NCBI GenBank assembly: GCA_038736355.1
Contig: JAVYML010000001.1
Location: forward strand, 372,001-436,000
DNA: 64,000 bases
Direction: 5' to 3'
Source of the DNA: Candidatus Hadarchaeales archaeon
Lineage (GTDB): Archaea > Hadarchaeota > Hadarchaeia > Hadarchaeales > WYZ-LMO6
Notes under the pieces: model-generated
The model's database searches: none
The model's input: only the letters and a program-made list of their open reading frames with translations
Told to the model about the DNA's origin: nothing
Translations under genes and position numbers: made by a program
Part shown: piece after piece, positions 17,775 through 20,700 of the stretch
Position numbering within the stretch: the stretch's first letter is position 1
How the letters are laid out: the number at the start of each line of letters is the position of its first letter

Positions 17775-17800
17775 TTTCGACCTCTATACCTTCCTCTTCC

Positions 17801-17812
17801 CTCTCTTAAAGG
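17801..17812 (-). promoter_or_regulatory. TATA-like promoter of the rps4e operon
   Basis: CCTTTAAGAG on the minus strand is centred about 32 bp upstream of the eS4 start, the usual position for a short-leader archaeal promoter. The 93 bp between the divergent eS4 and MoaD-like genes hold nothing else. Confidence 0.45.
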
Positions 17813-17837
17813 TGCTGAACCGGTTTTTTCTCCCAAC

Positions 17838-17846
17838 TTTTTTATT
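17838..17846 (+). promoter_or_regulatory. TATA-like promoter of the ubiquitin-fold/AOR gene set
   Basis: The TTTTTTATT run is centred about 26 bp before the ATG at 17868. That spacing predicts a leaderless transcript for the first MoaD-like gene. Confidence 0.45.
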
Positions 17847-17867
17847 CCCCCTTCCTTCTCTTTTTGA

Positions 17868-18140
17868 ATGGTCAAGGTCAAATTTTTCGCCAAGTTCAGG
17901 GAACTGGCTGGCGGGGAAGAAATGGAAGTGGAAGCCGAAAATGTACGTTCCCTCCTCCTAATCCTCAAGGAGAAGAGAGAGGGGCTGGGAAAAGCTTTGC
18001 TGGAAGAAGGGGGAAAGGACCTCAAAAAAACGGTAAAGGTGCTGGTCAACGGAAGGGAAGTCCGTTGGCTCAAAGGACTCGATACCCCCCTCAAAAAGGG
18101 GGATGTGGTTTATCTCTTCCCACCAGTGGGTGGGGGATAG
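17868..18140 (+). CDS. MoaD/ThiS-like ubiquitin-fold protein 1
   Basis: A 90-residue beta-grasp protein of the MoaD type: KVKFFAKFRELAGGEEMEVE at the N-terminus and a conserved VLVNGREVRWLKGL-type strand, ending GDVVYLFPPVGGG. The terminal Gly-Gly is the site adenylated and thiocarboxylated in MoaD/ThiS/SAMP proteins, which donate sulfur for molybdopterin or modify proteins. It is the first of three such genes in a row before an AOR homologue, so a role in tungstopterin sulfur transfer is likely but not proved. The 3' end lies 4 bp before the next gene. Confidence 0.88.
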   Translation: MVKVKFFAKFRELAGGEEMEVEAENVRSLLLILKEKREGLGKALLEEGGKDLKKTVKVLVNGREVRWLKGLDTPLKKGDVVYLFPPVGGG

Positions 18141-18144
18141 TGGG

Positions 18145-18351
18145 ATGAAAATAAGGGTGAGGATTCTGGAGGAGCTGGAGGAAAGGGAGATAGAGCTTCC
18201 GGAGGGGGCCACGGTGGAAGCCCTCCTTTCAAAACTGGGTTTGAAGGAACAGGGGATAGTGGTGATCAGGGAAAAGAAAATCATCGAAGGAAAGGAGGAG
18301 TTGAGAGAAGGTGACAGGATTCGGATCCTACCGGTGGCCATAGGTGGATGA
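18145..18351 (+). CDS. MoaD/ThiS-like ubiquitin-fold protein 2
   Basis: A 68-residue beta-grasp protein with the compact ThiS-like form: MKIRVRILEELEEREIELPE, then TVEALLSKLGLKEQGIVVIR, ending GDRIRILPVAIGG. ATG at 18145 is chosen because the fold begins there and it sits 4 bp after the first protein's stop; a start at 18103 would overlap that gene out of frame. Length and the V-I-R-E-K-K-I-I-E central strand look more like ThiS/SAMP2-type proteins than MoaD. It ends in Gly-Gly like its neighbours but is very different in sequence from both. Confidence 0.85.
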   Translation: MKIRVRILEELEEREIELPEGATVEALLSKLGLKEQGIVVIREKKIIEGKEELREGDRIRILPVAIGG

Positions 18352-18387
18352 ACCTGATTTATTTAGAAGCTATCTCAAAATACTGTG

Positions 18388-18660
18388 ATGCCGAGGGTCA
18401 GGGTCAAACCGGGTCTCCTCCTCACGGAGAAGATAGGGGAAGTGGAGATAGAAGGAAACACGGTTGGGGAGATCCTCGGGGAATTCGAGAGGAGATTCTC
18501 GAGGGAACTGGAAGAGTTGGAACTCTTGGAGAATGGAAAACTTCCCTCCTCCTTCATCCTGCTCCTGAACGGAAGGAACGTCAAACTCCTCGAGGGAGAA
18601 AGAACGAGGGTAAAAGAGGGCGACCTGCTGATGATCCTCCCTCCGGCCGCCGGTGGGTGA
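18388..18660 (+). CDS. MoaD/ThiS-like ubiquitin-fold protein 3
   Basis: A 90-residue beta-grasp protein: VRVKPGLLLTEKIGEVEIEGN, TVGEILGEFERRF, FILLLNGRNVKLLEGERT, ending EGDLLMILPPAAGG. ATG at 18388 is used; a GTG lies one codon upstream. An AT-rich element TTTATTTA about 25 bp upstream could give it a private leaderless promoter. Its stop is directly followed by the AOR start at 18661, so these two are the most tightly coupled pair of the set. It keeps the terminal Gly-Gly. The likely role is as sulfur or protein-modifier carrier; the partner activating enzyme (MoeB/UbaA-type) is not in the window. Confidence 0.85.
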   Translation: MPRVRVKPGLLLTEKIGEVEIEGNTVGEILGEFERRFSRELEELELLENGKLPSSFILLLNGRNVKLLEGERTRVKEGDLLMILPPAAGG

Positions 18661-20700
18661 ATGGAAAGCCGAGTAGCCTTTCTGAACGCTGGCAAGAAGG
18701 AGCTTCGGATCTCGGAAGTGAAGGATCCGAACCTTCTGGGGCCAGTGGACTGGGGCCTCTATTGCCACCTCGAACTCTATCGAAGTTACCTCTATCCCCC
18801 CTACGACGAACACAACGTACTCTGCCTGGGAATGGGCAAACTCGCTGGAAGTTGCATACCGGGGACCCATCGTCTCACCCTTTGCTTCCGCTCTCCCCTT
18901 TGGGAGGGCTTCTTCTTTTCCACCATAGGAGGGGCAGCCTATGCCTTCCGTCACCTGGGAGTTGAATACCTGGCCCTAGAGGGAAGGGCGGAAACTCCCC
19001 TGGCGGTGGCCCTGAAGGGTTCCCCCTCTGGATTGGAGATGAAGTTCAGGGAACTTTCTCCGGGTGAGCTCCAGGAGATTTACAAGGGATACGAAGGTGA
19101 GGAAGGTGTTTACGCCCTGCACGAATTCCTGCTCGAGGAATTCGGTGGATGGTACAGGAAGAGGGGAAGCCAGCTGGAATACCGCGTGCTCTGTGTGGGC
19201 CCCGCCTCCCTCCACACGAATCTGGGGGGAATCTTTTCCTCGGCCGTGAAGGGGGAGAAAAAGGACGTGGGGGCCGAGGATTGGGCGGCCAGGGGGGGCC
19301 CTGGCTCCGTGATGGCTAGGGCCCATGGGGTGATAGCCCTGGTGCTGGGGGGAAGGAACGAATGGAGGAAGTTTCCAGGAGTCAACCTAGCGGATCCGGA
19401 GGAGGCGGAGGAAGTCTTCAAGAAACTCCTTGGGAAGGGGATGATGAAGGTGGCCTCGGAAGCCACCGTCAAATACAGGTACGACGAAGCGGTGGGATCG
19501 GGAGGAACCTTTGGGGTAAACTACTTCGTGCTTAGGGAACTGGCGATCATGTTTGGTTGGAGTTCCGTGAACCTTCCCAAGGAGAAGAGGCTGGAACTCT
19601 ACGAAAGGCTGATCCGGACCAAGTACCTCAAACAGTTCGACCAAGAAATCACCTCCAGGAAGCACCTCCGTCCTTCCCTGGAGATTCCCTCCACGTTCTC
19701 GAGACCGTGGGTGAGGGTGAAGGTGTGGAAAAACTGCGGGGAACCCTGTCCAGGGGTGTGTAAGAAGGTGAGGGATAGATACAAAAAGGATTATGAACCC
19801 TACGAAGCCAACGGTCCCAACTGCGGGATCTTCGATCAAAGGGCTGCCGAAAGGGCCGTGTACAAGGTGGATTCTCTGGGTTTTGACGGCATAGAGTTCG
19901 GAAACACCTGCGGATGGATCTTCGAATGTCTCCATTCCGGGCTACTACAACCCCACGAACTGGGACTGGAGGAAAATCCTTCCTTCGACCCCTCCTCCTT
20001 CCATCCCTCCGATTCCTGGAAAAATGCAACCCTTCTGGAAAAACTGGCCGAGGCCGTGGCCTACCGCGAGAACGAGCTTTCGGGTTTGATAGGGGAGGGG
20101 GTGAGAAGGGCAGCGAAGGAATTCGATCGAAGGTTTGAGGAAAGGGTGAGGAAAACGGGAAAGAGGTTCGAGGATCTGGCAGTTTACGTGGCCTTCGGGA
20201 GGGACGGTTCCATCACCCCTGCCATGTACTGGAGTCCGGGTAACCTCATGCCCGTACCCATCCAAGGGAAATACTTCACCTTCTATCACTCGGAGTTCAA
20301 GGAACCGGAAGAATTCGCGGAACTCTGTTATCAAAGGGCGGTCAAGGAGATGTACTCGGAAAACAACGGCCTTTGCAGGTTTCACAGGGGATGGAGCGAG
20401 CGCATCCTTCCCCGCCTTCTAGAGGAAGCTTGGGGGATAAAGGTGGACTACGATGCCCACTGCAAGGGAATACTGAAGAGGATCGTAGAATACAACAGGA
20501 AGGCGGGTGTGGGGCCTGTTTTCTTCGAGGGAGAGAGGATAGTGGATGTGGTGGCCACCATGGCCAGGGAACTCTCGGAGAAGAACGAAAGCGGGAGGAA
20601 GTGGTGGGAGAAGTTTCAAAGGGACAAGTGGGGGGCGGCGAAGGAATACTGGGAGAGATTCCTGAGGAAGTACGAAGAACTAGTCTTGGGATCTATTTGA
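18661..20700 (+). CDS. Aldehyde:ferredoxin oxidoreductase-family tungstoenzyme
   Basis: A 679-residue divergent AOR-family protein. The N-terminal cofactor-binding fold is recognisable (HRLTLCFRSPLWEGFFFSTIGGAAYAFRHLG-like region, about 70-100, and RGGPGSVMARAHG, about 211-223). The Fe-S cysteines are C359-x3-C363-x3-C367, with C572 in ENNGLCRFHRGW as the likely fourth ligand. In Pyrococcus AOR the corresponding ligands are C-x2-C-x3-C plus one distal Cys; the x3-x3 spacing here resembles more remote branches such as the WOR-type enzymes. The family oxidises aldehydes to acids with ferredoxin using a tungsto-bispterin cofactor. It starts immediately after the third ubiquitin-fold gene. The substrate is not predictable. 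Its last 21 bp overlap the convergent membrane-protein gene. Confidence 0.88.
   Translation: MESRVAFLNAGKKELRISEVKDPNLLGPVDWGLYCHLELYRSYLYPPYDEHNVLCLGMGKLAGSCIPGTHRLTLCFRSPLWEGFFFSTIGGAAYAFRHLGVEYLALEGRAETPLAVALKGSPSGLEMKFRELSPGELQEIYKGYEGEEGVYALHEFLLEEFGGWYRKRGSQLEYRVLCVGPASLHTNLGGIFSSAVKGEKKDVGAEDWAARGGPGSVMARAHGVIALVLGGRNEWRKFPGVNLADPEEAEEVFKKLLGKGMMKVASEATVKYRYDEAVGSGGTFGVNYFVLRELAIMFGWSSVNLPKEKRLELYERLIRTKYLKQFDQEITSRKHLRPSLEIPSTFSRPWVRVKVWKNCGEPCPGVCKKVRDRYKKDYEPYEANGPNCGIFDQRAAERAVYKVDSLGFDGIEFGNTCGWIFECLHSGLLQPHELGLEENPSFDPSSFHPSDSWKNATLLEKLAEAVAYRENELSGLIGEGVRRAAKEFDRRFEERVRKTGKRFEDLAVYVAFGRDGSITPAMYWSPGNLMPVPIQGKYFTFYHSEFKEPEEFAELCYQRAVKEMYSENNGLCRFHRGWSERILPRLLEEAWGIKVDYDAHCKGILKRIVEYNRKAGVGPVFFEGERIVDVVATMARELSEKNESGRKWWEKFQRDKWGAAKEYWERFLRKYEELVLGSI

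Follow-up and report, generated by a model that had tools for sequence, protein, structure and literature searches.

The question raised by this locus is why three small proteins of different kinds, all ending in Gly-Gly, should be encoded in a row immediately ahead of an AOR-family enzyme, and whether any of them is dedicated to that enzyme. The window, i.e. the whole stretch of DNA analysed, comprises 64,000 nucleotides (contig C1:372001-436000) of a 1.27 Mb archaeal genome (G000) that, among named genomes, is related most closely to Hadesarchaea metagenome genomes. The locus is composed as follows (positions within the window):

17775..17867, no strand: divergent intergenic region between a ribosomal-protein operon (minus strand) and Ubl1, from the sequence, read by eye
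17868..18140, plus strand: Ubl1, MoaD-type sulfur carrier, 90 aa, C-terminus PPVGGG, from Pfam ThiS, moaD_arch and clade
18145..18351, plus strand: Ubl2, small carrier of ThiS/SAMP2/TtuB type, 68 aa, C-terminus VAIGG, from Pfam ThiS and clade
18388..18660, plus strand: Ubl3, MoaD-type carrier tied to the enzyme, 90 aa, C-terminus PAAGG, from Pfam ThiS and AlphaFold2
18661..20700, plus strand: predicted AOR-family tungsten enzyme, GAPOR-like, 679 aa, from NCBIfam, cysteines and fold

This succession of three MoaD/ThiS-family beta-grasp Gly-Gly genes before an AOR-family gene is real. The genes are separated by 4 bp (Ubl1/Ubl2), 33-36 bp (Ubl2/Ubl3, with the Ubl3 start at GTG 18385, giving 91 aa, or at ATG 18388, giving 90 aa, and its end at 18660) and 0 bp (Ubl3/enzyme), the ATG of the enzyme directly abutting the Ubl3 stop codon. 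In comparisons between genomes, the four genes have a dN of about 0.10-0.33 and a dS that reaches saturation from values of about 0.5 upwards in the cases for which it is computable; because dN is far below dS, all four are under purifying selection and represent maintained genes rather than chance frames. Read by eye, a TATA-like AT-rich stretch lies about 27 bases 5' of the Ubl1 start, and an AT-rich stretch is found at a similar distance before Ubl1 in three relatives. In the window, both the start of Ubl1-Ubl2 and that of Ubl3-enzyme have an AT-rich stretch about 25-30 bases upstream, which makes them candidate promoters by eye.

The three small proteins all score above the Pfam ThiS cut-off, with E-values of 1.1e-16 for Ubl1, 8.2e-12 for Ubl2 (45.9 bits for a cut-off of 22.5) and 2.9e-9 for Ubl3, and have sequence matches to beta-grasp proteins of known structure, 1vjk in the case of Ubl1 and, as best match, P. 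furiosus SAMP2 (1.2e-5) in that of Ubl2. The AlphaFold2 model of Ubl3 (pLDDT 90.7) has a predicted beta-grasp fold whose top Foldseek match is SAMP1 of Methanosarcina (TM 0.82), with further matches to CysO, MoaD and Urm1. These matches and this model agree with an earlier note on this DNA, which had described three divergent beta-grasp Gly-Gly proteins; in evolutionary kind, two are of MoaD type and one is of ThiS type. Ubl1 scores well above the cut-offs of the NCBIfam models moaD_arch (80.6 bits, cut-off 49.5) and SAMP1 (75.8 bits, cut-off 60), and Ubl3 is barely above that of moaD_arch (49.9 bits). Ubl2 stays below the archaeal MoaD model TIGR01687 (21.5 against 49.5 bits) and below the curated equivalog cut-offs of thiS (32.7 against 37.45) and SAMP2 (16.3 against 70 bits). 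The same note held that the three barely resemble each other, which is correct for Ubl2 as another kind of protein but overstated for Ubl1 and Ubl3, which are 37% identical. By pairwise identity, Ubl2 is nearest (48%) to a fourth carrier, Ubl4, encoded elsewhere in the genome.

A tree was built from 98 Ubls of the phylum together with references; the proteins are short and many forks stay open. In it, Ubl1 clades with MoaDs of a sister family that adjoin MoaE or are fused to E1 (support 96/87), Ubl2 forms its own family-specific clade in the ThiS half (100/99), and Ubl3 forms its own clade in the MoaD half (100/100) with no resolved sister. The reference labelled HvSAMP1_2m19 in this tree is HVO_2177, known as SAMP3, which leaves the conclusions as they are. 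In the relatives, genomic partnership with MoaE/MoeB was seen for the Ubl1 clade but not for Ubl3. Family, clade and MoaE/E1 partners mark Ubl1 as the ordinary, general MoaD of the lineage, with a predicted activity as the pterin-sulfur carrier that had been expected among the three proteins.

The best NCBIfam model of the enzyme is by far GAPOR_Arch, matched over its full length (628 bits, E 1.5e-188). We nevertheless call it “GAPOR-like”, because 628 bits falls below the 1300-bit equivalog cut-off of GAPOR (NF040818): it shares with GAPOR a full-length match better than that to any other NCBIfam model, but reaches about half the bits of the curated equivalog, has a substrate that is a prediction, and is encoded alongside an ordinary GAPDH gene. 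It harbors the Pfam domains AFOR_N and AFOR_C (79 and 72.2 bits), two pterin-side motifs (DSLGFD and ENNGLC) and four cluster cysteines (C359, C363, C367 and C572) that are invariant in 32 homologues, and its structural model (pLDDT 90.1) retrieves AOR-family enzymes only among Foldseek matches at E<=0.001. Domains, cysteines and predicted fold thus identify it as a member of the AOR family of tungsten enzymes, lying directly after the third Ubl as had been noticed earlier. Homologues with 34-46% identity are found in Methanophagales, DPANN archaea and many bacteria. Four of the DPANN genomes (G033, G034, G035 and G039; L055, L056, L058 and L064) have a GAPOR-type gene and no detectable ThiS/MoaD protein; either these genomes are incomplete or the cofactor comes from a host. 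Three more AOR-family genes are present in the window genome, none with an adjacent Ubl.

The full-length GAPOR-like enzyme is present in four genomes of the family, belonging to two genera, and absent from the other 24 genomes of the phylum. In all four, Ubl3 lies directly upstream of the enzyme, with a gap of 0 bp in the three genomes of one genus and of a few bp in G025, from the other genus; the enzyme gene of G026 is frameshifted and runs off its contig. The four-gene block that the earlier note proposed to look for in relatives is only partly conserved there, and is contiguous in the window genome only. In G026 and G027, of the same genus, a tight Ubl1-Ubl2 pair is followed by three opposite-strand genes (PhaC-like, PhaE-like and MaoC-like, named by reading rather than by profile search) and then by Ubl3-enzyme. 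In G025, Ubl1 and Ubl3 precede the enzyme and Ubl2 lies intact elsewhere, at about 1.2 kb from E1 and with a cysteine desulfurase gene 1.0 kb further on. Because an insert splits the block in two relatives and Ubl2 is located elsewhere in a third, the block consists of two modules, Ubl1-Ubl2 and Ubl3-enzyme, and codon composition fits this division (GC3 of 0.59-0.62 for the former and 0.69-0.71 for the latter). Ubl2, a paralogue of ThiS type, is as a rule accompanied by Ubl1. The Ubl3-enzyme linkage is a single evolutionary event in one clade, and its occurrence in four genomes therefore does not represent four independent pieces of evidence.

Two minor features of these genomes may be mentioned. 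A decayed, frameshifted Ubl1 copy precedes the intact Ubl2 of G025, between E1 and the cysteine desulfurase gene (L133:5895-6525), and reflects duplication followed by decay. A gene for an FdhD-like sulfurtransferase, named by reading without a profile, is convergent with the GAPOR-like gene of G025 (L036:5471-6202), and another, named in the same way, lies near a cysteine desulfurase gene in the window genome (G000:C1:151313-152002, L225).

The window genome encodes five ThiS/MoaD-type proteins, i.e. those of the block, Ubl4 and Ubl5. The main components located outside the block are:

C1:451239-451718: MoaE, single copy, overlapping E1
C1:451633-452394: E1 of MoeB/UbaA type, single copy, overlapping MoaE
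C3:335495-335695: Ubl4, ending in Gly-Gly, immediately before a TtuA-like tRNA thiolase gene
C3:225904-226203 (L043:9905-10204): Ubl5, MoaD-type, without a Gly-Gly end

E1 and MoaE lie about 59 kb from the block, and the genome also has one MoaA, at least one clear cysteine desulfurase and one JAMM-type (Prok-JAB) protease. In the tree, Ubl5 falls among those MoaDs of the sister family that lie beside AOR genes (100/99). It was also found at L134, L137 and L140; its Gly-Gly end is missing throughout the family of the window genome and is retained by its sisters beside AOR genes, some sister-family copies lacking it too. No true ThiG was detected in the window genome, where the profile matches are partial and of the type of TIM-barrel cross-matches, and a thiamine role for Ubl2 was rejected on this ground. 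Ubl2 is not beside TtuA; the TtuA-like gene adjoins Ubl4, a pairing conserved across the phylum.

A MoaD gene beside an AOR gene, which the earlier note gave as known, has indeed long been described (PMC1779556; PMC2948915), and molybdopterin supply to the tungsten cofactor has been proposed as the function of such AOR-linked clusters (Iyer, Burroughs, Aravind 2006, PMC1779556). As in those clusters, a MoaD-type gene here directly adjoins an AOR-family gene (Ubl3, in 4/4 genomes of the family). The present locus differs from them in the number of Ubls, three against one, with a ThiS-type protein among the three, in an enzyme of GAPOR type, and in having E1 and MoaE outside the cluster. The closest functional comparison is with UblA, UblB and UblC of Thermococcus kodakarensis, likewise three Ubls of MoaD and ThiS type, where the MoaD-type UblB alone matures the tungsten cofactor of GAPOR (GOR) and requires its Gly-Gly for this, the other two being dispensable; all three contribute to other tungsten enzymes with partial redundancy, and the ThiS-type Ubl serves tRNA thiolation (PMC11323500). 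The ubl genes of T. kodakarensis are scattered, the one needed for GAPOR being with E1; here, three are lined up ahead of the GAPOR-like gene, and a fourth, located elsewhere in the genome, encodes the tRNA-type carrier. A single E1 and a JAMM protease with several MoaD/ThiS-type Gly-Gly proteins are also common to the SAMP1/2/3 - UbaA - HvJAMM1 system of Haloferax volcanii, in which protein modification has been demonstrated, whereas the window system is known from its genes.

Among the best 80 GAPOR-type loci, a Ubl occurs near the enzyme in the family of the window genome only, and none was found at the other 77 within the stretch around each enzyme, several of these flanks being short; a widespread GAPOR-Ubl block is thereby rejected. 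With coordinates judged by eye, no two Ubls lie within 1 kb of each other in 18 genomes with distant homologues, nor in a set of 50 genomes of the phylum taken around a Methanophagales genome. Tandem Ubl pairs do recur in the phylum of the window (G006, G013 and G014, besides the studied family). A literature search, with subscription journals mostly outside its reach, retrieved no description of tandem Ubls before a GAPOR-type gene or of a GAPOR-linked SAMP. The trio represents a new variation on the MoaD-AOR theme, confined to one lineage.

As established for MoaD/MoeB and SAMP/UbaA, carriers are activated at their Gly-Gly end by one E1 and obtain their sulfur from a desulfurase. We propose, as a reading about evenly poised between right and wrong, that the block is a sulfur-supply module with the GAPOR-like enzyme, in which Ubl3 is dedicated, Ubl1 is the general MoaD and Ubl2 a further carrier. 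The single E1 would adenylate the Gly-Gly end of each carrier, which would receive sulfur from a cysteine desulfurase as a thiocarboxylate, and Ubl1 would act with MoaE to make molybdopterin. Ubl3 may be a MoaD that has diverged and serves only the pterin cofactor of the enzyme to which it is linked, and would be made in step with that enzyme because the two genes abut; by analogy with UblB of T. kodakarensis, it is probably the sulfur supplier for the tungsten cofactor. Ubl2 may be a duplicate of ThiS/TtuB type that is served by this E1 and joins Ubl1 as a supplier or a reserve, instead of taking part in a TtuA-linked tRNA reaction.

Sulfur supply is favored by the presence in the genome of the genes for E1, MoaE, MoaA and cysteine desulfurase, by an enzyme that is of GAPOR type over its full length and retains the cluster cysteines and pterin-type motifs, and by the purifying selection on all four genes. 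For a dedicated Ubl3 speaks its adjacency to the enzyme, which persists where Ubl1-Ubl2 is separated from it, and against it speak its marginal MoaD score, the absence of any resolved relative among the MoaD-type branches of the tree, and the single MoaE, with which a second MoaD is not strictly needed. The position of the enzyme under the GAPOR equivalog cut-off and the 77 loci without a Ubl argue likewise against dedication to GAPOR. The G025 gene between E1 and cysteine desulfurase is consistent with Ubl2 as a carrier on this E1, although this role draws on one neighbourhood in one genome.

The tandem pairs elsewhere in the phylum, the separation of Ubl1-Ubl2 from Ubl3-enzyme in two relatives and the partial redundancy of the T. 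kodakarensis Ubls for other tungsten enzymes (PMC11323500) would all suit simple redundancy, in which duplicated MoaD/ThiS genes were retained beside the enzyme by chance at the edge of a ribosomal-protein operon. We regard this as rather unlikely, with an adjacency of Ubl3 and enzyme that survives across two genera and a neighbouring insert, and with long divergent branches and a dN/dS of about 0.15 that suggest kept, distinct roles. It is unlikely that Ubl3, perhaps with Ubl2, is mainly a SAMP-like modifier that is attached through its Gly-Gly to lysines of MoaE or the GAPOR-like enzyme and switches their activity until JAMM removes it. Conjugates have been reported for all three T. kodakarensis Ubls (PMC11323500) and for SAMP1, where they inhibit MPT synthase (PMC4443979), and E1 and one Prok-JAB protease are available; however, these components equally serve sulfur transfer, no target is apparent in the sequence, nothing points specifically to conjugation of the enzyme, and strict pairing with a pterin-dithiolene enzyme suits a carrier as well or better. 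The division proposed in the earlier note, one Ubl for the pterin, one for tRNA/Fe-S sulfur and one conjugated to the enzyme, appears very unlikely. The TtuB/ThiS type of Ubl2 would agree with it, but it is not supported as stated, because the tRNA-sulfur carrier is Ubl4, a separate gene beside the TtuA-like gene, and a tRNA-sulfur role within the block was rejected. That reading is thus partly supported, with a division of roles different from the one proposed.

With a low probability, Ubl3 could also be an enzyme-specific partner acting beyond molybdopterin synthesis, in sulfuration or insertion of the tungsten-bispterin or through reversible switching conjugation, in which case one E1 would feed several single-purpose carriers. 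Whereas in T. kodakarensis one of three scattered Ubls alone matures GAPOR, the window lineage ties a MoaD-type gene physically to a GAPOR-like gene while keeping it distinct from the general MoaD (Ubl1) and the tRNA carrier (Ubl4). With one E1, one MoaE and four Gly-Gly carriers, it offers a compact natural set in which to ask how sulfur is targeted to one tungsten enzyme and whether an enzyme can have a private carrier.

Finally, MoaD domains also occur in other arrangements. In the sister family, an in-frame fusion that places MoaD ahead of E1/MoeB and has a Gly-Gly in its interior (..FPPVAGGKLTPDELKRYSRQ..) is encoded in several loci (L143:1832-2842, L152:2952-4061, L158:1096-2115, L169:2337-3356, L173:1903-2916, L195:1544-2560, L198:1718-2737 and L209:2333-3352), where the end of the carrier would need to be released by cleavage or else work in cis. 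A second type of fusion was found at L162 and L178. Further MoaD domains are fused to an apparent HD-domain phosphohydrolase (L174:942-2489, 515 aa) and to an apparent PrmC/HemK-type methyltransferase (L199:884-1807).
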